Positions 5,763 to 26,307 of a DNA stretch of 64,000 nt are shown here, piece after piece. The DNA is from Candidatus Saccharimonadota bacterium. GTDB lineage: Bacteria; Patescibacteriota; Saccharimonadia; Saccharimonadales; Saccharimonadaceae. The translations under genes were made by a program, and so were the position numbers. Location: NCBI GenBank assembly GCA_017540545.1, contig JAFYAV010000001.1, positions 248,001-312,000 on the forward strand, read 5' to 3'. Positions within the stretch are counted from its first letter, which is position 1, and each line of letters starts with the position of its first letter. The notes under the pieces were generated by a model that was given only the letters and a program-made list of their open reading frames with translations, was not told the origin of the DNA and did not search any database.

Positions 5763-6713
5763 ATGTGGTGGCTAATTCTTCCCGTTGCTGCATCAGTTTT
5801 TTATTGCTTTGACGGATACATCCAAAACTATCTTACCGATGTTGCGCTACCTAAGAAGCGCGCCGGCTCTCTGGCGATCATGCACGCTCTCGGCTTTTTC
5901 GTGTCCATTATTGCCTTAATCGCCATCTTTGGTCGTGCTGTTTTTATGATGCCGCTCGGCAACGCGCTTGGTTTGATGCTGGCCGGCGTAATTAATGTCA
6001 TTGGCGCCATCTTTTACTACAAGGCAATTCAAAAAGGCGACAATATTGATGTCACGATTTTTGGCCAAGTCGCGCCACTCATGTCTATTGGTCTCGGCGT
6101 ACTTTTACTTGGCGAATCAATCAATTCCAACCAAAGCCTTGGCTTTGTCATGATTATGGCTGCGACGCTCATTGTAATCTTCGGTACGAGCAGCAAACGC
6201 GAGAAACATAGCCCCAATGTCGATGTGGCGTTAACTACAATTGTGTATTGCTTTTTTTCGATTCTTTCAGATATCGTCTATGCGTTGTTTATTGGCGACC
6301 GCATCGCGGACTATACCTTGTTCGCTCAAGGATTCTTCTTCTTTCAGCTCGGTTCGCTACTCGCGGTTGTTCTGTGTTTTATCTTCTTCGATTCGTGGCG
6401 CAAAGCGCTCAAGCGCACCTTCTTCACGAGCAAGAAGCACCATTTTTATCTTTTGGCCGAACTTGCGGATAATGTTGCCCTGCTTGGCGGAGAGATTTTT
6501 TATAAATTTGCACTCATTGTTGCGCCAGTTGTTTCACTCTTGGCGCCAATTGCGCGCGTCTCTAACCTCTTCGTCTCATTCTTCATTGTTTTGTTCCTAG
6601 GTCGCGCTTTCCCGAAGTTTATTACCGCCAAGCGCATGACGAAAAAAATCATTCTCTACTATCTGGTTGCTGCCATTATTATTATGGTCGGTATTATTTT
6701 AATGAATTCTTAG
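5763..6713 (+). CDS. EamA/DMT-family transporter
   Basis: A 316-aa protein with about ten hydrophobic segments arranged as two five-helix halves. The end of half one shows the EamA signature (GQVAPLMSIGLGVLLLGESI). The substrate cannot be told; family members export amino acids, nucleosides or other metabolites. A TAAAAT -10-like box at 5751-5756 is six bases before the ATG, so translation is probably leaderless. Nothing odd in length or composition. Confidence 0.8.
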   Translation: MWWLILPVAASVFYCFDGYIQNYLTDVALPKKRAGSLAIMHALGFFVSIIALIAIFGRAVFMMPLGNALGLMLAGVINVIGAIFYYKAIQKGDNIDVTIFGQVAPLMSIGLGVLLLGESINSNQSLGFVMIMAATLIVIFGTSSKREKHSPNVDVALTTIVYCFFSILSDIVYALFIGDRIADYTLFAQGFFFFQLGSLLAVVLCFIFFDSWRKALKRTFFTSKKHHFYLLAELADNVALLGGEIFYKFALIVAPVVSLLAPIARVSNLFVSFFIVLFLGRAFPKFITAKRMTKKIILYYLVAAIIIMVGIILMNS

Positions 6714-15943: not shown

Positions 15944-16012
15944 GGCTTCCGCACCAAGCGAATTTCGGACCTCAACTCCACAATCCAAATCCTGAAAGTG
16001 AGTGACATCTGG

Positions 16013-16070
16013 ATCTTTCTCAGGAGCGTCTAGCTATCTAGAATCCTGTTCACCGAAGCCCTGCGAGCTC
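16013..16070 (+). ncRNA. Conserved three-way-junction element, copy 1
   Basis: Aligned with copy 2 at 16325-16380. The closing stem is CAGGaGC (16021-16027) with GCCCTG (16058-16063), with one bulged A. The inner hairpin is TCTAG-CTAT-CTAGA, and a third short hairpin has a TTCA loop. Both copies begin ATCTTTCTCAG and end TGCGAGCTC. Compared with copy 2, one closing-stem pair changes from A-U to G-C, which supports a folded RNA. It lies about 70 bases after the unit 1 terminator; whether it is part of the same transcript is unknown. A weak hairpin followed by five T ends the unit near 16128. Confidence 0.5.
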
Positions 16071-16176
16071 TCATGACTTCAATGTCAGTTTTAACCATTG
16101 ATTTAAGACACCTTGCGGTGCCTTTTTAATATAGAAAAGTCCAAAGCGACTTAAAAGCATGAGTTTAATCATTTGC

Positions 16177-16182
16177 TATAAT
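16177..16182 (+). promoter_or_regulatory. Extended -10 promoter of RNA unit 2
   Basis: TTTGCTATAAT, the same eleven bases as the promoter at 4043-4053. It has a TG extension and no good -35. Confidence 0.5.
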
Positions 16183-16188
16183 ATATCT

Positions 16189-16256
16189 ATACAGGCGCAA
16201 GCCTAGAACTTACGCCTTGTTGGTTTAGGGGAGACTAGCTGAAGCTGGTCTCTTTT
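16189..16256 (+). ncRNA. Predicted small RNA, unit 2 (paralogue of unit 1)
   Basis: It begins just after the -10 at 16177. The stem AGGCG (16193-16197) with CGCCT (16213-16217) is continued by AAG/CTT around a CCTAGAA loop, and a G/T-rich linker leads to the terminator at 16231-16256. Unit 1 shares the loop and the order of parts, but the stems differ in sequence while keeping pairing, as expected of paralogous structured RNAs. Confidence 0.5.
16231..16256 (+). terminator. Intrinsic terminator of RNA unit 2
   Basis: GAGACTAGC, TGAA loop, GCTGGTCTC, then TTTT. A 9-bp stem with one T-G pair. Confidence 0.65.
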
Positions 16257-16324
16257 GCTATTTAATCAATCTGATTCCCAATTTAAACTCCACTTTCCAT
16301 ATTTTGATGGTAAGTATCATTCAA

Positions 16325-16380
16325 ATCTTTCTCAGAGGCCTAGCTATCTAGGATACCGTTCATGGAGCCTCTGCGAGCTC
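16325..16380 (+). ncRNA. Conserved three-way-junction element, copy 2
   Basis: The closing stem CAGAGGC (16333-16339) with GCCTCTG (16367-16373) is perfect. Inside it are CTAG-CTAT-CTAG and a short CCG-TTCA-TGG hairpin. About fifteen bases further on, TAGGTTCCA (16386-16394) is complementary to the first nine bases of the mod start region at 16694, so a transcript covering it could act on mod. Confidence 0.5.
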
Positions 16381-16484
16381 AACAATAGGTTCCATGCTAA
16401 ACCAACGAATATTATTTTCACGATAACTATCAAGCAACAAAAGCATAAGCTTAAGATTTTTCACACAAACCCCTTTAAAACAGG

Positions 16485-16490
16485 TATAAT
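16485..16490 (+). promoter_or_regulatory. -10 box of the structured leader upstream of mod
   Basis: TATAAT at 16485-16490 with no obvious -35. A start six to seven bases downstream would coincide with the first base of the long hairpin stem at 16496. Confidence 0.45.
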
Positions 16491-16495
16491 TAAAG

Positions 16496-16650
16496 TGGAA
16501 CTTACAATTTAACAATATATCGCGTTTTAGCTGACGCATTTTCGCGTTGCAAAAACCTTGATTGCAGCTCCCATAGGAGTCGGTCTTATAGTTTTTGCCT
16601 AAAACGCGAAATTGTAGGTTCCAGCCGGCGACTTGGGGGCTGCAATTTTT
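16496..16650 (+). ncRNA. Long structured leader RNA or switch in front of the type III R-M genes
   Basis: The outer stem pairs TGGAACTTACAATTT (16496-16510) with AAATTGTAGGTTCCA (16609-16623), with one G-U. The middle stem is CGCGTTTTAG (16521-16530) with CTAAAACGCG (16599-16608). The inner stem is GCAAAAAC (16549-16556) with GTTTTTGC (16591-16598). The three 3' arms are directly continuous; the 5' side has a 9-nt bulge and a small GACGC/GCGTT hairpin. The apical loop ATTGCAGC (16561-16568) can pair with GCTGCAAT (16639-16646), which precedes a T-rich run. The 3' outer arm is also perfectly complementary to 16694-16707, at the mod start. See the finding on this region. Confidence 0.6.
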
Positions 16651-16707
16651 ATTTAAATGCAGCGCAGCACTTTTTATCAAACATAAGAGTAATTGGAACC
16701 TACAATT

Positions 16708-18381
16708 GTGAATGATACATCTGATAAATATGCTAATTTTTCGCACGACGAATTAGTCGCCGAAATAAATCGTTTAAAGAAGCACAAAAAATACGGCCTC
16801 GTTTGGGAGCATAAGACCGAAAAGGTGATTGAGGATTTCGAAACTCAACAACCATACCTCGAAGAAGTAACCGATAAACGTATAGAAGATGCTCCGGATG
16901 AGCCGACAAATCTGATTATTGAGGGCGATAATTTTGAGGCGCTATCGATTTTGAATTATACACACGCCGGTAAAGTGGATGTTATCTATATCGATCCGCC
17001 ATACAATACTGGCAATAAAGATTTTATTTACAATGATGATTATGTAGATTCCGAAGACGAATTCCGCCACAGCAAATGGCTTAGCTTTATGGAACCAAGA
17101 TTAAAGTTGGCAAAGAACTTATTGAAAGATGACGGATTCCTTCTTATATCAATAGATGAAAACGAACAAGCGGCATTAAAAGCTGTCTGTGATGACATAT
17201 TCGGGAATAAAGCGTTCATAGCAAGTTTAATATGGCAGAACAAATACACTATATCAAATGATAAAGGGAATGGTCTGTCAACTCAGACGGAGTACATTCT
17301 ATGCTATTCAAAAGTAGATGCATCTTTAGTGGCAATGAAGCCAGCACCGCTACGCGACGAATACATTAAAGCCAATTACAAAAATCCGGACAATGATCCA
17401 AATGGACCATGGATGTCTGTGCAAATGTTTAAATATAAAAACCCGTATAGTTTTGAAGTAGTATCCCCAACCGGTAAAAAATGGAACATGCCATGGAACT
17501 TTACTGTAGATTCATTCAAAAAACTTGCAGACGAGGGGAAAATCTATTGGGGCGAAGATGGTAATTCTTGCCCGAGAAAGAAAGTTTACTTAAAAGACTC
17601 AAAAGGCACATCGCATAAGAATTTACTATTAGGATCTGAAGTTGGTTATGCGGCAAATAGTAGCGCTGAACTAAAAAATGTTTTCAACAAAGCGAATGTA
17701 TTTCCATATCCAAAACCATCATCTTTGATTAAGCATATTATCAACTACTCCAATAATCCGTCGGCGACAGTCCTCGATTTCTTCGCTGGCTCCGGCACGA
17801 CCGGTCAAGCTGTTCTTGAGCTAAACAAAGAAGATGGCGGTCATCGTCAATTCATTCTATGTACAAATAATGGAGATAAAGGTCCAGATTCTACGAAGAT
17901 TGCAGAAGAAATTACCTACCCACGTATTAAGACAGTTATAACAGGCGTGCGCCAGGATGGTAGTAAATATTCCGATGGTATTCCGGCAAATCTCCGCTAC
18001 TACAAAATTAGTCATCGCGAAAAGAAACCTAGCATCGATGCAAACCGTCAGGATATGGCCGCGTATATGGAAGACATTATTCAGGTTAAAGAAAATGCTT
18101 ATAAACAACTTGAAGTTAACGAAGATTTCGCAATTTACGAATCGAACGAAAAATATGTTGGTTTAGTATTCGAACCATTCTCGCTCGAAGAAGCTATTGC
18201 AAATCTCAAAGAACGAAACACGGAAAAACGCCCAGCCAAACTCTACGTATTCTCGTATAGCCGTGACGCGTTTGAAGATGATTATGGCGCAGACTTTGAA
18301 ATCGAATTCGTTGCTATGCCGGAAGGTTTATTGAAGACTTACGCGCACATCGTAGAAGAACAGAAAAAGGAGGACTTATGA
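16708..18381 (+). CDS. mod: Type III restriction-modification DNA methyltransferase (Mod)
   Basis: About 557 aa from the GTG at 16708; a TTG at 16693 in the same frame is an alternative start and lies inside the complementary segment. Mod recognises the target and transfers a methyl group to adenine, and it also guides Res. Catalytic motif IV DPPYNTG starts at residue 96 and the AdoMet motif DFFAGSGTTGQ at about 357, the beta-class order typical of type III Mod. The target-recognition region lies between them. It overlaps res by four bases (ATGA), so the two are one operon. It is more AT-rich than the flanking core genes, consistent with acquisition. Confidence 0.88.
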   Translation: MNDTSDKYANFSHDELVAEINRLKKHKKYGLVWEHKTEKVIEDFETQQPYLEEVTDKRIEDAPDEPTNLIIEGDNFEALSILNYTHAGKVDVIYIDPPYNTGNKDFIYNDDYVDSEDEFRHSKWLSFMEPRLKLAKNLLKDDGFLLISIDENEQAALKAVCDDIFGNKAFIASLIWQNKYTISNDKGNGLSTQTEYILCYSKVDASLVAMKPAPLRDEYIKANYKNPDNDPNGPWMSVQMFKYKNPYSFEVVSPTGKKWNMPWNFTVDSFKKLADEGKIYWGEDGNSCPRKKVYLKDSKGTSHKNLLLGSEVGYAANSSAELKNVFNKANVFPYPKPSSLIKHIINYSNNPSATVLDFFAGSGTTGQAVLELNKEDGGHRQFILCTNNGDKGPDSTKIAEEITYPRIKTVITGVRQDGSKYSDGIPANLRYYKISHREKKPSIDANRQDMAAYMEDIIQVKENAYKQLEVNEDFAIYESNEKYVGLVFEPFSLEEAIANLKERNTEKRPAKLYVFSYSRDAFEDDYGADFEIEFVAMPEGLLKTYAHIVEEQKKEDL

Positions 18382-20660
18382 TTCTCAAAGATTTTCAAAA
18401 CGATGCAATTAACGAAACTGTAGAATATATTCGCGATTTCTTAATCAAAAAAGAGCAGGGTAAATCTACAGACAAAGTCTCGCAAGTTGTACTAAAAAGT
18501 CCTACGGGTTCTGGCAAAACAATTATGGCGGCTGAAATTTTGCGCAATCTATCTGACTTTTTCGAAACTCATCCGTATGCTATCATTTGGGCGGCGCCAA
18601 ATAAACTGCATGAGCAATCACTAAAGAAGCTTTCGAATCGCCTCGCGGAGACCGAATATCAATTAGTGAATGTTGATTCTATGAGTGCAGGCGCACTGAC
18701 TAGAAATACAGTCCTGTTTACGAACTGGGAAAAACTATTCAAAAAAGACAAAGACGGCGAATGGGCAAATAAAGCTGTGCGCCAGGGTGAAGACGGAAAA
18801 AATCTTCAGGACGTCTTGGATGCTACTCGCGCAGCCGGCATTGGTATAGTATTGATAGTCGACGAAAGTCACCAGACTTTCTACGGTACTAATTCACAGG
18901 CCTTGGTCCACGAAGTTATTAAACCGGAATTAGTTCTCGAAATTTCCGCCACGCCAAAGGCCGTCACGATGGGCGGGGATTATCATATTACGGAAGTTGA
19001 TTTTACCGGCGTGGTGGATAGTGAGCTTATTAAAAAAGAAATCTATCTCAATAACGAAATCGCAAAAAGTATTACCGATGCCACCAATTCAGTCGAAGCT
19101 GTAATTAATGCCGCATTGGACAAAAGAGAAGAGCTGGCGAAAAAATATCAGGAACTAGGGCTAAACATTAATCCACTTCTTTTGGTTCAATTGCCAAATA
19201 CTTCAAAAGAGACAATGTCTGAGCTCGATCTAAAAGACAAAGACATTATTGAGAATATTCTGGAAAAGCGTGGCTTGCGCTACTCGAACTGTGAACTAGC
19301 AATTTGGCTTTCCGACGATAAGCAGAACCTGGAGAATATTGAGAAGTTAAATAATCAAGTTAAAGTTTTAATTTTCAAACAAGCCATCGCGCTTGGTTGG
19401 GATTGCCCACGTGCGCAGGTTATGGCAATGCTTCGCGATACAAAATCCGAGACTTTCCGTATTCAGACTGTTGGACGTATTCTACGAATGCCAGAGGCAA
19501 GGCACTATGCCGAGGATGCGCTGAATAAAGCGTACGTTTACACGGATCTTCCGGATATAAAAATCGACGCAGACGATACCGATGCGAAGAACCTTCTCAA
19601 AATGCAGTTCGCATATCGAAAGGAAGGCATTTCAAATGTTTCTCTACCAAGTGTCTTTATTCATCGTACGGATTACGGCGATTTACGCGCAGACTTCAAG
19701 CCAATTCTTGATAATATTCTCGATCAAACTTTCGGTACAGACGACTCCATGATTGTTGGCGAAGACCGCTACAATCTCATCGACGAGAAGCTCGAACTCT
19801 ATGACTCGGAGTTAACTTCGCCAATTATTGCTGATGCAATTATTGAGAACTTAGATAGCTATGAAGTATCAGAGTATGAAACGCTCAAAGTTAATATGGA
19901 TGCAGCAAATATTGAGCGCATCTTTAATACGATCCTGAAAGGTTTTACTGGTCAATTTAAGAACTGGGCTCGTACTAAATCTGTCGTTTGCGGTACGTTA
20001 TATGGCTGGTTCCATAAGGCGAATATAGATATTGAACAAGTGCAAAAACTAATCGCATGTTCGAGAGTAAATCAGGAAATATTTGCACAGATTTTCGATA
20101 AGGCACTCGATGCGTATGAAGATGTTTATCGTGAAGAAATGAAGAAACGTCGCGCGCGCGAGCTCGAGGAGCTAACCTTCCGCATTCCAGAAGTTGATCA
20201 GTTCAATGAAAACTACATCATCACAAAGTCTCCGAATAACGCCATGGAGCAGTACTACCGTAAAAAGAATGCTCCTGGCACTGAAAATAAATTTGAAGAC
20301 ATGCTTGACGCGAGCTCTCAAATTGAATGGTGGTATAAGAATGGCGAAAAAATGGAACGCTACTTTGCTATTCCGTACTTCGAACTAAATGAACGTCAGC
20401 GTAGTATTCGCCGCGCATTTTATCCTGATTACATTATTAAATATAAGGATGGTTCGATTGGTATCTATGATACGAAAGCTGGTTTTACCGCCGACAACGA
20501 GCATGTTCGTCAAAAAGCCAATGCGTTGCAAGCGTTCATTCAAGAACATGCAGACCTAAATCTTAAAGGTGGAATTATTAATGTGAAAAATAATTATTTC
20601 TATCTTCAAGATTCGCCAGACTATGACGAAAACGGGGGATGGAAGGCGTTCGCAATTTAA
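18378..20660 (+). CDS. res: Type III restriction enzyme Res subunit (helicase-nuclease)
   Basis: A 760-aa SF2 ATPase with Walker A (SPTGSGKTIMAAEILR), a DESH box in place of DEAH (IVDESHQTFYG, near residue 161), and motif VI (QTVGRILRMPEARHY). The C-terminal nuclease site is of the PD-(D/E)xK kind: FYPDYII, then GIYDTKAG near residues 683-702, with Asp in the acidic position before TK. With Mod it should form a Res-Mod complex that cuts unmethylated DNA after communication between two sites. The start overlaps the mod stop. All key motifs look intact, so the system appears functional. Confidence 0.88.
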   Translation: MILKDFQNDAINETVEYIRDFLIKKEQGKSTDKVSQVVLKSPTGSGKTIMAAEILRNLSDFFETHPYAIIWAAPNKLHEQSLKKLSNRLAETEYQLVNVDSMSAGALTRNTVLFTNWEKLFKKDKDGEWANKAVRQGEDGKNLQDVLDATRAAGIGIVLIVDESHQTFYGTNSQALVHEVIKPELVLEISATPKAVTMGGDYHITEVDFTGVVDSELIKKEIYLNNEIAKSITDATNSVEAVINAALDKREELAKKYQELGLNINPLLLVQLPNTSKETMSELDLKDKDIIENILEKRGLRYSNCELAIWLSDDKQNLENIEKLNNQVKVLIFKQAIALGWDCPRAQVMAMLRDTKSETFRIQTVGRILRMPEARHYAEDALNKAYVYTDLPDIKIDADDTDAKNLLKMQFAYRKEGISNVSLPSVFIHRTDYGDLRADFKPILDNILDQTFGTDDSMIVGEDRYNLIDEKLELYDSELTSPIIADAIIENLDSYEVSEYETLKVNMDAANIERIFNTILKGFTGQFKNWARTKSVVCGTLYGWFHKANIDIEQVQKLIACSRVNQEIFAQIFDKALDAYEDVYREEMKKRRARELEELTFRIPEVDQFNENYIITKSPNNAMEQYYRKKNAPGTENKFEDMLDASSQIEWWYKNGEKMERYFAIPYFELNERQRSIRRAFYPDYIIKYKDGSIGIYDTKAGFTADNEHVRQKANALQAFIQEHADLNLKGGIINVKNNYFYLQDSPDYDENGGWKAFAI

Positions 20661-20672
20661 AGGGAGAAGAAA

Positions 20673-21536
20673 ATGGCAGCATACGAAGAATTAGTTGAGC
20701 TTATCGGAAAGAAAGATATAGTAAAAGCGCATAAAGATCTCGTAATACGTGGCGGTAATTTTGCGAGCGGAAAGTTATGCGAATATATGGATTTAAGTGC
20801 TAGATCAACTAGAACCAAAACTGTTTTTATCTTTGACGATGAGATGGAAGAAGATGCCACCGAGCCAAGCCGTCTGGGGAAGTTATTTATGCGAAAAATA
20901 GATACTAAAACCCAAGATTATGGCTTTGTTTTTAATAAGACGGGAACGGAAAAGCTAATTCGTAATATTGCTACTGGAAGTCCGATTAGGTTGTTTGACG
21001 ATTTTCGCGACGACTTCAATTTTATAGACGATAACAAAGAAGCGTTATGGCAAAAGGCTTCTGATTATACCAAGCGAAATTTAATCGCTAAAAATATCAT
21101 GTCGATGAATAATAAGACGCGCATACAATATCGTACTCATGGCGATAGACTGCATTATCTTGTAATAGGAAAAGTTGTCGTTATGCGTCAATCGGGCGAG
21201 AAGTTTGAGCGCGAAGTGTACCCACTTTCTTTATTTAGCGTTCAGAAATCCGACCCCAAAACCCAACGTTTAGAGATTGAATCTGCAGGGTTTTATAATT
21301 TCTTTTTGGATGAAAACATACTCGACGGTGAACTGACGAGGCTTTTGCAGACGAATGAAATAAGTATTGATAGCAGCATCGGTTCTACTCTGACTAAAAT
21401 CCAATTGAGATTATCGAGTATTAATTTGCCATACATTCAATCGATAAAGTTTGATCCTACGTTTAGCTTAATTGGCGTCATAACGGGCTTTGGCGCTGAA
21501 TATTTAGATAAAGCCTGGGCGGAGATATTAAAGTAA
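20673..21536 (+). CDS. Unknown protein of the island, possible detached N-terminal module of the helicase (287 aa)
   Basis: Starts with GGGAG eight bases before ATG 20673; it follows res by 12 bases and ends overlapping the helicase start (TAATG), so it is co-transcribed with both. No catalytic motif or membrane segment is seen. The stretch REVYPLSLFSVQKSD and the following 30 residues resemble the APLLLxPVxL region that precedes the helicase core in large DUF4011-type SF1 helicases. I infer that it is the accessory half of a split version of such a protein. Confidence that it is a real gene is high; confidence in the role is low. Confidence 0.6.
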   Translation: MAAYEELVELIGKKDIVKAHKDLVIRGGNFASGKLCEYMDLSARSTRTKTVFIFDDEMEEDATEPSRLGKLFMRKIDTKTQDYGFVFNKTGTEKLIRNIATGSPIRLFDDFRDDFNFIDDNKEALWQKASDYTKRNLIAKNIMSMNNKTRIQYRTHGDRLHYLVIGKVVVMRQSGEKFEREVYPLSLFSVQKSDPKTQRLEIESAGFYNFFLDENILDGELTRLLQTNEISIDSSIGSTLTKIQLRLSSINLPYIQSIKFDPTFSLIGVITGFGAEYLDKAWAEILK

Positions 21537-24500
21537 TGAAGACCACAATTAACTCGTTAGACCCATCACAGAAATCTGCCCTAGATTCGATTCTTAGTGG
21601 CAGTTCGAATAACACGGTGATATATGGTCCTCCAGGAACGGGGAAGTCGCACTTAATTGTTAGTCTATTGTTCGAGTTGGCCGCGGAAGGTAAAAGTGTC
21701 CTCTTTGTTAGCCAGAACTCTGAAGCACTAAATGTAATCGTGAGAATGTACAAGGGGTTGCATAAGGAGCTAGGTCTTGGGGAGCAGGATTTGTCATTCT
21801 TGGATTTCTGTTGGCGTCTGAATTCCCCAGAGCAAAAGAGATTAAAATTCTTAAGGAATAGTTTTAATAGTCGCACGGGTAAAACTACTCAAAGTTCCGC
21901 GATTCTCGATTATGGCGTACGTAATGATTGGGCCGAAAACTCTGCTCCATATAATTTAACTTATAAAGAGCTAGATATTATTAAAAATATGAACGTTCGC
22001 CCAGATGCGGTAGGCATTGATGAATTAGCGACGATTAATATTAAATATTTATCGAAAGAAAAAAATACTCCAGCAATACTACATAATGTCGATAAAATAG
22101 ATACTCGATATATTTTAGAATTGTTGAATAATTTTAAAGATCCAAATCATAATTTTTCGAATTATAACAATCCAACTAATCAACTAAAGTTTTTCTCTAA
22201 GAGCAATAAACAGTTAACTTTAGGCATGATTAGGTCGTATGCAGATTCTATTTGTAGTGTCGATGATATTGTAGAAAATAATACGACATACATCGTGTCA
22301 AGTGACAATATAACTATTCAGAAATATCTAGAGCACTTGCGTCAGATCGCTAGAGCCTCTTCTTATATAAGCATTGATAGCGTCAAGAAAAACCCAGAAA
22401 TTTTAGATAAGATTCAGTTTGAACTCAAAAAAGCAATTGTCGTTAATAACAGGCAATATGTTGTAGAAAAAATATCTGTCCCTAAAGATATTGATTGTGA
22501 TACTTTTGTGAAATATAAAAAAGAGTTTACTAATATTCGTGATACTATCGAGCTGGCTGGAGATATTAAAAATCGCGAATCGTTATGTCGTAAATTGCAA
22601 GCACTCAGTGAAAAATATCCGTTCGATATGGATGCTAGTATTAATAATCTTTTAATTTATTGTCTTAAAACTATAGATTTTGACTATAGAAGTTTATTTA
22701 CTAAAGGAAAAGATTTTAAACTATTTCTTGGAATGGACGAGGGTGATTTAAGTAATCTCGTCTCGGACATAAAAGAATACAATAAAAAGGGAAGATTATC
22801 TAAAGTTTTTTCTTCGTTTCCAGAGACTGTAAGCCAATTCGAAGAGACGATGGGTGATGATATTGTAAACAATGTGGAATATCTTAGTACGTTTATAGAC
22901 GTAATCAAAGGTACTAAATATACCGTTCAAAATATTTACGACTTAGCGTTTGAGAAAATAGAAGGAATGAATTTTGATCCATTAGAGAAAATGGACATAA
23001 CGGTTGATGCCGTAATTGAGCTCACTAATTATTTAATAAAACTCAAAGAAAGTACGCCTGCTTATCTTATTACGAATAAGTCGATTAAAGAGACTATTGA
23101 GGATTGTGACGATTTTAATAGTAAAGCAAGATTAATTGCCGAGATTATAAAAACTAATAAGATCGAAACGGATAATATTTGGTTAGCGGTCGAAATGGTG
23201 AATCAAAATATATTAAATGGCCAATATGCCGCCCGTATAGATGAAATATATGACGAAATCTCGCCACTGTTAACCAATCAGAATCGCTCCGATTTCATAC
23301 GAGAAGCTGAAGGCATAATTGATTTTATTTCCACTAATAGAAATACGATTCTTGATGCCCTGAGCAACATCTCCGAGATTCCAGAGAAGATCTCGATTGA
23401 TGCTGAGAAGATACTCGAATTAGAAAAAGTATTGAACGACTCGCTTGATGCGGATATATTCTCACATGATTTCTATTGGGTTAGAAAAGGCGAAAATATT
23501 AACGTCTGGCGGAAACGTGTGGATACTATTTTAAATTACAATAATATTGATGAGTTTGAGGAATATATCTCGCAAATGCTATTCCTCGATAATTTGAAAG
23601 AGGCACTTACTCCTGCGAATCTAAAGATTATCGTAGATCTATTGTCGGAAGAGAGGGTTGATTACGATACTTTCGCGAGTTATTTAGCTAACGACATAGT
23701 TTCGTCAGCTCTTTACAATATGTCTAAAGGCAATAATCCTAAAATGTCTAGTGATTATTTTGAGACCTATGAGAAACGTATTTCGGAGCAGAAGAGATTG
23801 CGTTATCTACGAGAACTTCGGGGTATGCGCGCGAACTGTGCCAAAGAGGCGCAATTCTTGTCATATGCATCGAATTGGTTCGGTAATTCCGTAATGGAAA
23901 AAATTCGAAATAATACAGTGCATATCATAAAGGCGTTTCCAGTCGTAATTGCAACACCTAGCGACGTCTCGAAATACATTGCAGCTTTTAAAGAACTATT
24001 TAACTATGTAATTTTCGACGAGGCATCGCAATTGTTGCCTGGCCAAGCGTTACCGTCGGTGTATCGGGCGGAAAAGTCGGTCATCGTTGGCGACCCTCAT
24101 CAGATGCCGCCAACTGCGGTTTCGATGCTTGGCGGTACAGCCACTGCGACGATTGACGAGGGGGATGACGAAATTGGCGCCAGTATTTTGGATATGGCCG
24201 TTAATCTTCCAGACTTAGAGTCGCATCATCTGAAGATACATTATCGCTCGGAATCTAATAAACTATTTGAACCATCACTCACGGCAATATATAGCCAAGA
24301 TGGGATTAGGCCAATTTTTGAAGCGAAGAGTGGAAGTTTGCCTATTTATATTGAGGACAATATCGGCGATGATGATAGCCGAGGTTTTGGTGTCATTATT
24401 AAACGCATAGATCACTATCTGAATATAAATCCGAATGCGAGTTTTTGTGTCCTATTCTCGAGAGGAAGCGGAAAGGGCAGTTTGTATGAGTTTAAGAAAT

Positions 24501-25681
24501 ATCTCGAGGCGCATCCGGAAAATACTGAAAAGATTATGGAGATGTATGAGAACGAAAGAATCTTATTATCTACTGTAACGAATTGTCAGGGAATTCAGGG
24601 GCATCATACGATTATTTATTTGCCTACCTATAATAGTATTAGTAGGATGTGGTTCTTTAATGAAAAGGCTGGGGCGTATAAACGTTTGAATGTTTCTATT
24701 ACTCGTCAGACGAAGACTCTTGATGTCATTATGGGGGATACGAAAAATAAGTGGATTAACGCTTGTCAGGGTTACATACAGTCGGATAATACGCCGCCAA
24801 ATACCTTGCTGAGTGCTAATTTATTAAACTCACTACTTACAAATGCGGGGCAGGTTATTGATCGAGAATATCTCCAGCGTACACTTGAGGGTAATGTGGC
24901 CACGATTGATTCTCCATTAACTAGAGAGATATACGATAAGCTAGTTGAGCACTACAAGGATGATATAGATAAAACTATCAATATATGGTGCGAAGTAGGA
25001 TGGAATATTTTAATTCCTGATTCAGAAAACTACGACATAGAGCGTAAAAATGTTGGTTATCGAGTAGATATTGGCATATATTCTATTGCGCGCAAACGTT
25101 TTGTTTTGGGTATCGAAATGGATGGTTCGGTCTATCATAATGGTTTTGATAAAGAGTTTTCCGATTCGCAACGTCAGGACACGCTAAAACGCAAGGGTTG
25201 GAGAATGTATAGAATCTGGTCTACGAATTGGCTGCGCGACACGAGAACCGAATTCGACAAATTGGTAAGCGTAATTGATGAGGAGCTTGCGAAAGAAGAG
25301 CCGCTAGAAGATATTAATATCCCCGATGATGATTATGATATCGAAGATATAGACGAAAATGAAGAAGATGAATCCGCAATCGTTGTCGACGAGCCCAGTA
25401 TCGTAAATATAGATATTCCGAGCCCAACGGAACCGGATAAACCAGTAAAAGTAATATCGAGAGAAGATATTGGTCAAATCATGTTCGAGTTGAACTTAAC
25501 TAAAATCGTCGATCAGCGTCTTCGTATCGGGGCACCGCTCACTATAACTCTCGCCGACAGCCACGAAACAAGGAAAATATATCTGAAGAAAAAGGAGAGC
25601 GACGGTTTTCTAGGCGCAGAAGAAATCAATGGGGCAGTACGGAAATATAAATATGGCATGATTGAGAGTTATCAGGAGTAG
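21536..25681 (+). CDS. Giant SF1 (DNA2/Upf1-like) helicase with C-terminal Vsr-fold nuclease domain
   Basis: A 1381-aa protein. The Q-motif (LDPSQKSAL) is followed by Walker A GPPGTGKS at residues 31-38. A roughly 750-residue AT-rich helical insertion separates it from motif II (FDEASQ, D828), motif III (VGDPHQMPPT), motif V (NCQGIQGHH, about 1017) and motif VI (NVSITRQTKTL, about 1053). Near residues 1190-1235 is an MTES_1575/Vsr-like nuclease: GIEMDGSVYHN, DSQRQDTLKRKGW, RIWSTNWLRD. An acidic linker and a small C-terminal domain close the protein. It probably unwinds and cuts foreign DNA; relatives occur in defence islands. It overlaps the previous gene by one base, and the next starts two bases after its stop. 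Confidence 0.75.
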   Translation: MKTTINSLDPSQKSALDSILSGSSNNTVIYGPPGTGKSHLIVSLLFELAAEGKSVLFVSQNSEALNVIVRMYKGLHKELGLGEQDLSFLDFCWRLNSPEQKRLKFLRNSFNSRTGKTTQSSAILDYGVRNDWAENSAPYNLTYKELDIIKNMNVRPDAVGIDELATINIKYLSKEKNTPAILHNVDKIDTRYILELLNNFKDPNHNFSNYNNPTNQLKFFSKSNKQLTLGMIRSYADSICSVDDIVENNTTYIVSSDNITIQKYLEHLRQIARASSYISIDSVKKNPEILDKIQFELKKAIVVNNRQYVVEKISVPKDIDCDTFVKYKKEFTNIRDTIELAGDIKNRESLCRKLQALSEKYPFDMDASINNLLIYCLKTIDFDYRSLFTKGKDFKLFLGMDEGDLSNLVSDIKEYNKKGRLSKVFSSFPETVSQFEETMGDDIVNNVEYLSTFIDVIKGTKYTVQNIYDLAFEKIEGMNFDPLEKMDITVDAVIELTNYLIKLKESTPAYLITNKSIKETIEDCDDFNSKARLIAEIIKTNKIETDNIWLAVEMVNQNILNGQYAARIDEIYDEISPLLTNQNRSDFIREAEGIIDFISTNRNTILDALSNISEIPEKISIDAEKILELEKVLNDSLDADIFSHDFYWVRKGENINVWRKRVDTILNYNNIDEFEEYISQMLFLDNLKEALTPANLKIIVDLLSEERVDYDTFASYLANDIVSSALYNMSKGNNPKMSSDYFETYEKRISEQKRLRYLRELRGMRANCAKEAQFLSYASNWFGNSVMEKIRNNTVHIIKAFPVVIATPSDVSKYIAAFKELFNYVIFDEASQLLPGQALPSVYRAEKSVIVGDPHQMPPTAVSMLGGTATATIDEGDDEIGASILDMAVNLPDLESHHLKIHYRSESNKLFEPSLTAIYSQDGIRPIFEAKSGSLPIYIEDNIGDDDSRGFGVIIKRIDHYLNINPNASFCVLFSRGSGKGSLYEFKKYLEAHPENTEKIMEMYENERILLSTVTNCQGIQGHHTIIYLPTYNSISRMWFFNEKAGAYKRLNVSITRQTKTLDVIMGDTKNKWINACQGYIQSDNTPPNTLLSANLLNSLLTNAGQVIDREYLQRTLEGNVATIDSPLTREIYDKLVEHYKDDIDKTINIWCEVGWNILIPDSENYDIERKNVGYRVDIGIYSIARKRFVLGIEMDGSVYHNGFDKEFSDSQRQDTLKRKGWRMYRIWSTNWLRDTRTEFDKLVSVIDEELAKEEPLEDINIPDDDYDIEDIDENEEDESAIVVDEPSIVNIDIPSPTEPDKPVKVISREDIGQIMFELNLTKIVDQRLRIGAPLTITLADSHETRKIYLKKKESDGFLGAEEINGAVRKYKYGMIESYQE

Positions 25682-25683
25682 GC

Positions 25684-26307
25684 ATGCCTTATCCTGACAG
25701 CCATAGTTATGCATTAAAACATTTGCCGAGTGATTATCGGGGTCGAGAAAAAATAGTTTTTATTACTAAAAACCTCCGCGGTTTTCTCTCCCTTTCCGAA
25801 TTGCGCAAAGCTCTCGTTGCTTTAGCGCAGAATCATTATTTGTCATATCAATATATTATGAACAACTTTGGCGCTAATGATCATGATGCACTACAGGAAG
25901 TTTTTGACGCGGAATCGAAAGGCATTTTTCAAAAATCCAACCCAAATGATGTCACGGCTAAATTGTTTTGGCATCTAAATCCGAATCTTACCGAGAAAGA
26001 TCTCCACGACTATATTTATCCTAAAATTGCCAAAAATAAGAAACCGAAAATTAGGAAGTATTCCGAAGTCGTCCGCCCCGTCAAACATTTTTCGCCAAAA
26101 ACGCACCGCAAAACATATAACCCCGACCCTCGCGGAGAAAGTAACCGAATTGCCAACGAACGCGAGCGTAGACACTATGATTCTATCGTGGGCGACATGT
26201 CGCCCGATCGCAAGCCAGACGCCGACAGCTATCATTGGAGCGATAAAACATCTAGGCAATTCAATCGCAAACTGCGCTCTGGCGAAATCAGGCCTGACGA
26301 CGGCTAG
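25684..26307 (+). CDS. Unknown basic protein at the end of the island operon (207 aa)
   Basis: ATG 25684 is two bases after the helicase stop. The first 110 residues look globular and helical (SLSELRKALVALAQNHYLSYQ). From about 110 on the protein is very basic and disordered-looking (KIAKNKKPKIRKYSEVVRPV; HFSPKTHRKTYNPDPRG), as in a nucleic-acid-binding tail. No known motif was recognised. Base composition is closer to the core genome than the helicase gene, so it may be a resident gene next to the insertion rather than part of the system. Confidence 0.5.
   Translation: MPYPDSHSYALKHLPSDYRGREKIVFITKNLRGFLSLSELRKALVALAQNHYLSYQYIMNNFGANDHDALQEVFDAESKGIFQKSNPNDVTAKLFWHLNPNLTEKDLHDYIYPKIAKNKKPKIRKYSEVVRPVKHFSPKTHRKTYNPDPRGESNRIANERERRHYDSIVGDMSPDRKPDADSYHWSDKTSRQFNRKLRSGEIRPDDG

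Follow-up and report, generated by a model that had tools for sequence, protein, structure and literature searches.

What role does the long leader in front of a type III restriction-modification (R-M) operon of Saccharibacteria play, and is that role peculiar to type III systems? The operon lies in the window, the whole 64,000-nt stretch of DNA that was analyzed. An earlier note on this DNA had proposed that a nested hairpin ahead of the methyltransferase gene mod exchanges one of its outer arms for a segment at the start codon, making the transcript an RNA switch. The leader, here designated RNA-1, spans 16491-16652; its parts and those of the operon are as follows.

16485-16490, + strand: promoter -10 box TATAAT, with no -35 match
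16496-16509, + strand: arm A, the 5' strand of helix P1, TGGAACTTACAATT, pairing with B with one U-G
16520-16530, + strand: P2 5' strand, with its partner at 16599-16608
16533-16548, + strand: P3, a variable side hairpin predicted in the fold
16549-16556, + strand: P4 5' strand, with its partner at 16591-16598
16561-16572, + strand: P6 5' strand, inside the P4 apical loop, ATTGCAGCTCCC, identified by covariation in 22 copies
16591-16598, + strand: P4 3' strand, GTTTTTGC, identified by pairing and covariation
16599-16608, + strand: P2 3' strand, CTAAAACGCG, identified by pairing and covariation
16610-16623, + strand: arm B, the 3' strand of P1, AATTGTAGGTTCCA, complementary to both A and C
16635-16650, + strand: P6 3' strand (16635-16646, GGGGGCTGCAAT) running into TTTTT (16646-16650), terminator-like
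16675-16710, + strand: conserved pre-start block TATCAAACATAAGAGTAATTGGAACCTACAATTGTG, from a genus-wide motif search
16694-16707, + strand: arm C, TGGAACCTACAATT, directly 5' of the start codon and complementary to B
16708-18381, + strand: mod, type III DNA methyltransferase with a GTG start (PADLOC MTase_III, E=1e-100; Pfam N6_N4_Mtase)
18378-20660, + strand: res, type III restriction subunit (Pfam ResIII; PADLOC REase_III)
20673-26307, + strand: three more co-directional genes, encoding a 287-aa protein of unknown function, a 1381-aa helicase with a REase_MTES_1575 domain and a 207-aa protein of unknown function

Inspection of the sequence bore out the geometry given in the earlier note. 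TATAAT is present at 16485-16490, the 3' arms of the three-tier hairpin run unbroken from 16591 to 16623, and the outer 15-nt pair (16496-16510 with 16609-16623) is 93% complementary with one G-U. The 14-nt pairing of 16610-16623 with 16694-16707 is perfect, with C adjoining the GTG start at 16708, and the apical loop (16561-16572) is complementary to 16635-16646, with TTTTT right after. B and C constitute the sole perfect 14-nt inverted repeat with arms no more than 150 nt apart in the 64-kb window, and a 14-nt repeat was attained in 0 of 2000 dinucleotide shuffles of the leader region. The folding z-score of the leader against shuffles is -5.6. A sigma-70 scan found no two-hexamer promoter at the leader; only the -10 box is evident, and from it we infer the leader promoter.

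When the full leader of the window is folded, the states containing A:B, B:C and P6 have computed energies of -72.3, -72.4 and -72.3 kcal/mol, a spread of 0.1, and the two states compared at the T run come to -56.6 and -56.1 kcal/mol. The P2-P5 tower is retained in both the A:B and the B:C folds. In computed folds of relatives the balance between A:B and B:C moves a few kcal/mol either way, and in several of them A:B is preferred by 4-8 kcal/mol.

DNA similarity searches, followed by a covariance model built from 18 copies, identified a total of 22 copies of RNA-1 in 21 Saccharibacteria genomes from two genera (genome G035 carries two copies). The leader was present in 17 of the 45 same-genus genomes searched and in 4 of 174 from a second genus in the family; 295 genomes sampled from the class added no other genus. 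The genomes surveyed are assemblies, many of them metagenome bins, and the independent lineages are few: the main group, G016/G024, a glycan group, G034/G005/G035/G008, and the second genus. A pattern scan of GTDB genomes returned 13 RNA-1 loci, all in Saccharibacteria MAGs, and separate searches of viral contigs, phages and plasmids gave no match. Rfam likewise returned no credible match, either for the window at gathering thresholds or for the leader and a second-genus copy at E<=5, and in the literature covered no account of such a leader was found. We conclude that RNA-1 is a conserved, apparently undescribed, structured RNA family.

Several features are constant, or nearly so, throughout the family. 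All 22 copies have identical orientation, and each has a -10 box a few bases 5' of the GGAA of arm A (TATAAT in 20, TAAAAT in 2). The GGTTCCA of arm B is invariant in 22/22 copies, and the T run after P6 is kept in 19/22, missing from three divergent second-genus copies. Invariant columns number 32 in paired and 8 in unpaired positions.

Covariation was assessed on an alignment of the 22 copies that was model-fitted to P1, P2 and P4, not to P6. Together P1, P2, P4 and P6, plus a candidate helix P7, are paired in 95.5% of cells; pairs changed on both sides number 21, compared to 9.5 in shuffles, and 0 of 500 shuffles reach 21. Every slid version of the helix set collapses. Two-sided changes are found in 5 of 13 pairs of P1, 6 of 10 pairs of P2 and 3 of 8 pairs of P4 (which is 100% paired), or 14/31 for the three helices together. 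The covariance modelling in related Saccharibacteria that had been suggested as a check thus recovered a family with compensatory changes, and at the level of sequence evolution the A:B pairing can be taken as proven.

P6 is paired in 98.5% of cells and 7 of its 12 pairs are changed on both sides. This is the cleaner covariation result, because P6 played no part in fitting the alignment, and it was also prominent on an earlier MAFFT alignment made without structure. P6 crosses P1, P2 and P4, yet both sets of helices covary, and the two sets must therefore be alternatives or a pseudoknot. The conserved, mutually exclusive helices (P1/P2/P4 versus P6) with a T run after one of them are the arrangement by which an attenuator is recognized. 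In the three second-genus copies the T run is missing, and P6 there may therefore be a pseudoknot and not a terminator. Judged from the alignment, the apical-loop helix P6, which the earlier note mentioned last, is the best supported of the alternative pairings. The candidate P7 (16579-16583 with 16625-16629) is 86% paired with no two-sided change; P3 varies in sequence among copies, and on inspection of the alignment, not by statistics, a hairpin can still be drawn there. A third partner for B, CTTATAGTTT in the apical loop, was seen in the P6 fold and was set aside, being lost in more divergent copies.

The C element is present in 19 copies, 65-105 nt 3' of B and right before the first start codon, as part of a longer conserved block in which ATAAG and TAATTGG are found. 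TGGRACC, the complement of GGTTCCA, is retained in every one of the 19; B:C comprises at least 7 bp in each and at least 11 uninterrupted bp in 17/19. At up to 3 mismatches, the pre-start block or C motif occurs in the genus only 3' of RNA-1, except for one 3-mismatch match in G027. The evidence for B:C is mostly conservation with little covariation, the sole informative change being a same-position U-A/U-G/C-G replacement between groups. At the glycan loci of G001 and G023 arm A tracks B and C does not, and B:C is down to 7 bp there, while G016, G024 and G008 keep the fold without C. B:C is therefore best described as supported, short of proof. The earlier idea of an RNA with alternative pairings is upheld in part: the compensatory changes in A:B, P2, P4 and P6 and the B:C complementarity in 19/19 copies favor it, and the limited covariation of B:C weakens it.

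One further complementarity was noted between the apical region (TCTTAT, window 16584-16589) and the pre-start block (ATAAGA, 16683-16688). It is found in most copies and is absent from G034, and the second genus has CTATGG versus CCATAAG. This could represent a possible second contact between the apical region and the pre-start block.

The genes following RNA-1 are diverse. Fifteen of the 19 C-bearing copies precede a type III mod, seven of them window-like and eight of another mod type. The G035 copies precede a helicase with hits to defence profiles (C3a193/DpdF) and a type IIG-like split R-M system, and those in G001 and G023 precede sugar-transferase/Stealth/LytR-type glycan operons, with C directly before a short conserved ORF. 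The proposed switch was thus wrongly taken to be specific to type III R-M. RNA-1 subgroups are shuffled relative to downstream gene types, and where a locus carries a different gene the DNA match breaks off at the start codon (query position 232 of 241). The leader is therefore a regulatory module able to move from gene to gene. A second-genus member, G343, has a first-genus-like RNA and mod; this suggests transfer, with binning error as the alternative. In the orphan copies of G016 and G024, another leader RNA directly follows RNA-1.

Two side observations concern the coding content of these loci. At the glycan operons L044 and L045 a conserved 15-codon ORF lies 3' of C (MYKTAGIIRLFGAAL and MYKTASIIRLLGIAL, respectively) and is a possible leader peptide. 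In G008 (L046, oriented 6205-6621), RNA-1 is separated from RNA-2, a second leader RNA described below, by a 138-aa ORF whose product looks, by eye, like a contact-dependent-inhibition nuclease domain; a methyltransferase comes after RNA-2.

A cis-regulatory leader switch that combines a transcription attenuator with start-site occlusion is the most likely reading of RNA-1, and one we hold with modest confidence. Its basis is the covariation of P1, P2, P4 and P6, the conserved B:C complementarity, the near-equal computed energies and the modular exchange; termination, occlusion and any action in trans are inferences. Transcription would begin just 5' of arm A, and the hairpin tower of P1 (A:B), P2, P3 and P4 would fold first, since the order of synthesis favors it. 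Three outcomes may then follow. With the tower closed, the polymerase would read through, C would be free and the first gene would be translated. Alternatively, pairing of the apical-loop strand with 16635-16646 (P6) beside the T run would cause premature termination and yield an RNA of about 155 nt. Finally, C, made later, could compete with A for B, and a swap of A for C would mask the nucleotides directly 5' of the start codon. Since the terminated RNA carries B, it might in addition bind C in other transcripts and so provide negative feedback like that of P4 CI RNA or IsrK.

The closest parallel is the CI RNA (immunity RNA) of satellite phage P4, to which the C4 antisense RNA is related. 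P4 CI RNA can pair on either side of itself in the same transcript, with seqA upstream and with seqC downstream (PMC4825925). In both, a leader segment (B) is complementary to an upstream (A) and a downstream (C) segment, and early termination, which is involved for P4 CI (PMC4825925), would be involved for RNA-1. RNA-1 differs in having no sequence or covariance match to P4 CI/C4 (Rfam, at gathering thresholds and E<=5), a hairpin tower that is larger and is crossed by a further helix, a C that adjoins the start codon, and a position before defence and glycan operons of Saccharibacteria. At IsrK of the Gifsy-1 prophage, a single promoter serves both a small RNA that ends by termination and an mRNA made by read-through, and the small-RNA part alters access to a downstream ribosome site (PMC4825925). 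IsrK opens that site (PMC4825925), whereas B:C in RNA-1 would cover it, and no sequence relation between the two was found. With attenuators and cis-regulatory riboswitches RNA-1 shares a 5' leader position, mutually exclusive helices and a T run after one of them; unlike these, it has no known aptamer (Rfam), has another alternative pairing that involves the start-codon region, and is found before defence genes. A T-box was dropped on finding no matching boxes by eye and no Rfam T-box match, and an integron attC-type site on finding no matching boxes by eye.

Reviews of R-M control describe C proteins, methyltransferase repression and reverse-promoter antisense RNAs (PMC3874152, PMC12707154). 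The antisense RNAs of EcoRI and Eco29kI arise from reverse promoters on the opposite strand (PMC3874152, PMC12707154), and for the type III systems EcoP1I and EcoP15I post-transcriptional control has been observed and is uncharacterised (PMC12707154). The control proposed for RNA-1 resembles that of EcoRI and Eco29kI in acting on an R-M operon at the RNA level; unlike those antisense RNAs, RNA-1 is a sense-strand leader common to unrelated systems.

Two other leaders, RNA-2 and RNA-3, lie 3' of the orphan RNA-1 copies. Matches to RNA-2 (query L043:250-560:-) came from about 14 genomes of the genus, and the genes behind them are EcoRI-like, Eco57I-like or of other kinds; for RNA-3 (query L042:16880-17160:-) the only clear match elsewhere is in G038, and G030 has weaker pieces. 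Read by eye, both have a -10 box and a nested tower with arms that vary in concert from copy to copy, an apical loop that pairs with sequence just 3' of B and crosses the tower, and a downstream segment that is complementary to one strand of the tower and lies either within a terminator or at the start codon. They appear to repeat the RNA-1 architecture with unrelated sequence before other methyltransferases.

The genes after RNA-2 appear to start at AUA, four bases 3' of AGGAGG and within the conserved hairpin TGTGGCGCTA...AGGAGGCGCCATA (L119:1774, L120:1501, L121:1774, L122:1773, L123:1774, L124:527, L125:1774, L126:1501, L127:983, L128:145, L129:1758 and L132:1759). ACG takes the place of AUA in two cases, L118:1782 and L043, and no ATG, GTG or TTG was found at the expected N-terminus of RNA-2-linked genes. 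If many methyltransferase genes do share a conserved non-AUG start, that alone would be remarkable.

Upstream of the leader, window 15985-16400 is built of repeats (CTAGCTATCTAG...GCGAGCTC at 16030-16070 and 16340-16380) that related genomes also carry, often in several copies, 5' of their RNA-1 or RNA-2 loci. A 24-nt stretch at 16097-16120 has a 92% match to the RNA-2 B arm, though this genome has no RNA-2, and GGTTCCA at 16388-16394 resembles the RNA-1 B arm. These B-arm-like stretches could be guide-like small-RNA segments or remnants. RNA-1, RNA-2 and RNA-3 might conceivably make up a modular Saccharibacteria leader clan for defence operons, in which B changes partner, from an arm upstream to an expression site downstream and back, to control dosage or establishment of new R-M systems, possibly assisted in trans by small RNAs of the upstream array; we offer this only tentatively.

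Four other explanations of RNA-1 were weighed. The leader might be a pseudoknot in which P1, P2, P4 and P6 form together and a bound protein or metabolite sets expression, the T run and C being secondary. P6 is conserved and covaries even without the T run, orphan copies without C retain the fold, and RNA-2 and RNA-3 appear to show the same crossing layout in unrelated sequence, all of which this would explain. However, RNA-1 has few invariant unpaired nucleotides (8, versus 32 paired), which may set it apart from most metabolite aptamers. It has no Rfam match, so belongs to no known aptamer class, and by a geometric estimate the short B-P6 linker would hardly bridge a straight 33-bp tower. 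We consider a ligand-bound pseudoknot possible, if doubtful. That RNA-1 is instead the gene of a trans-acting small RNA, with the terminated RNA of about 155 nt as the conserved product and the downstream operon merely one target via C, seems unlikely to us: 19/22 copies are operon leaders, and the C motif (up to 3 mismatches) is linked in cis only, the single G027 match apart. It would nevertheless account for the fold and promoter kept in copies without a linked C and for the identical B and C of the two G035 copies, and P4 CI RNA and IsrK act partly in this way (PMC4825925).

The remaining two explanations place the repeats at the level of DNA. Surface-glycan and R-M operons are classic phase-variable loci, and a perfect 14-nt inverted repeat could suggest an invertible element with B/C or A/B as recombination sites. 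We judge this very improbable: 0/22 natural copies are inverted, the A:B differences keep RNA pairs through G-U and two-sided changes, and C departs from A in glycan loci. A and B also resemble the terminal inverted repeats of a transposon or MITE, an origin that the earlier note had said would count against the switch if the repeat occurred elsewhere. No second copy of RNA-1 was found in its own genome, and on that ground the transposon end was rejected; in the pattern scan of GTDB genomes RNA-1 is confined to Saccharibacteria leaders. The constant -10 box, the compensatory changes and the shuffles make either such an end or a chance inverted repeat scarcely credible.

The leader switch thus remains our preferred reading. 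RNA-1 is a conserved folded leader that gut Saccharibacteria carry ahead of many different operons for DNA defence and a few for surface sugars. The alignment of its copies shows at least two mutually crossing predicted folds beside the start codon, as would be expected of a switch setting the amount of defence. The alternative pairings yield exact mutational predictions. Restraint of newly acquired restriction systems is known mainly through C proteins, methyltransferase repressors and reverse-promoter antisense RNAs; if the proposal is true, a modular leader RNA common to several unrelated defence systems would be an RNA-level answer to that problem, and RNA-1 would offer a ready regulatory part for a lineage with few genetic tools.
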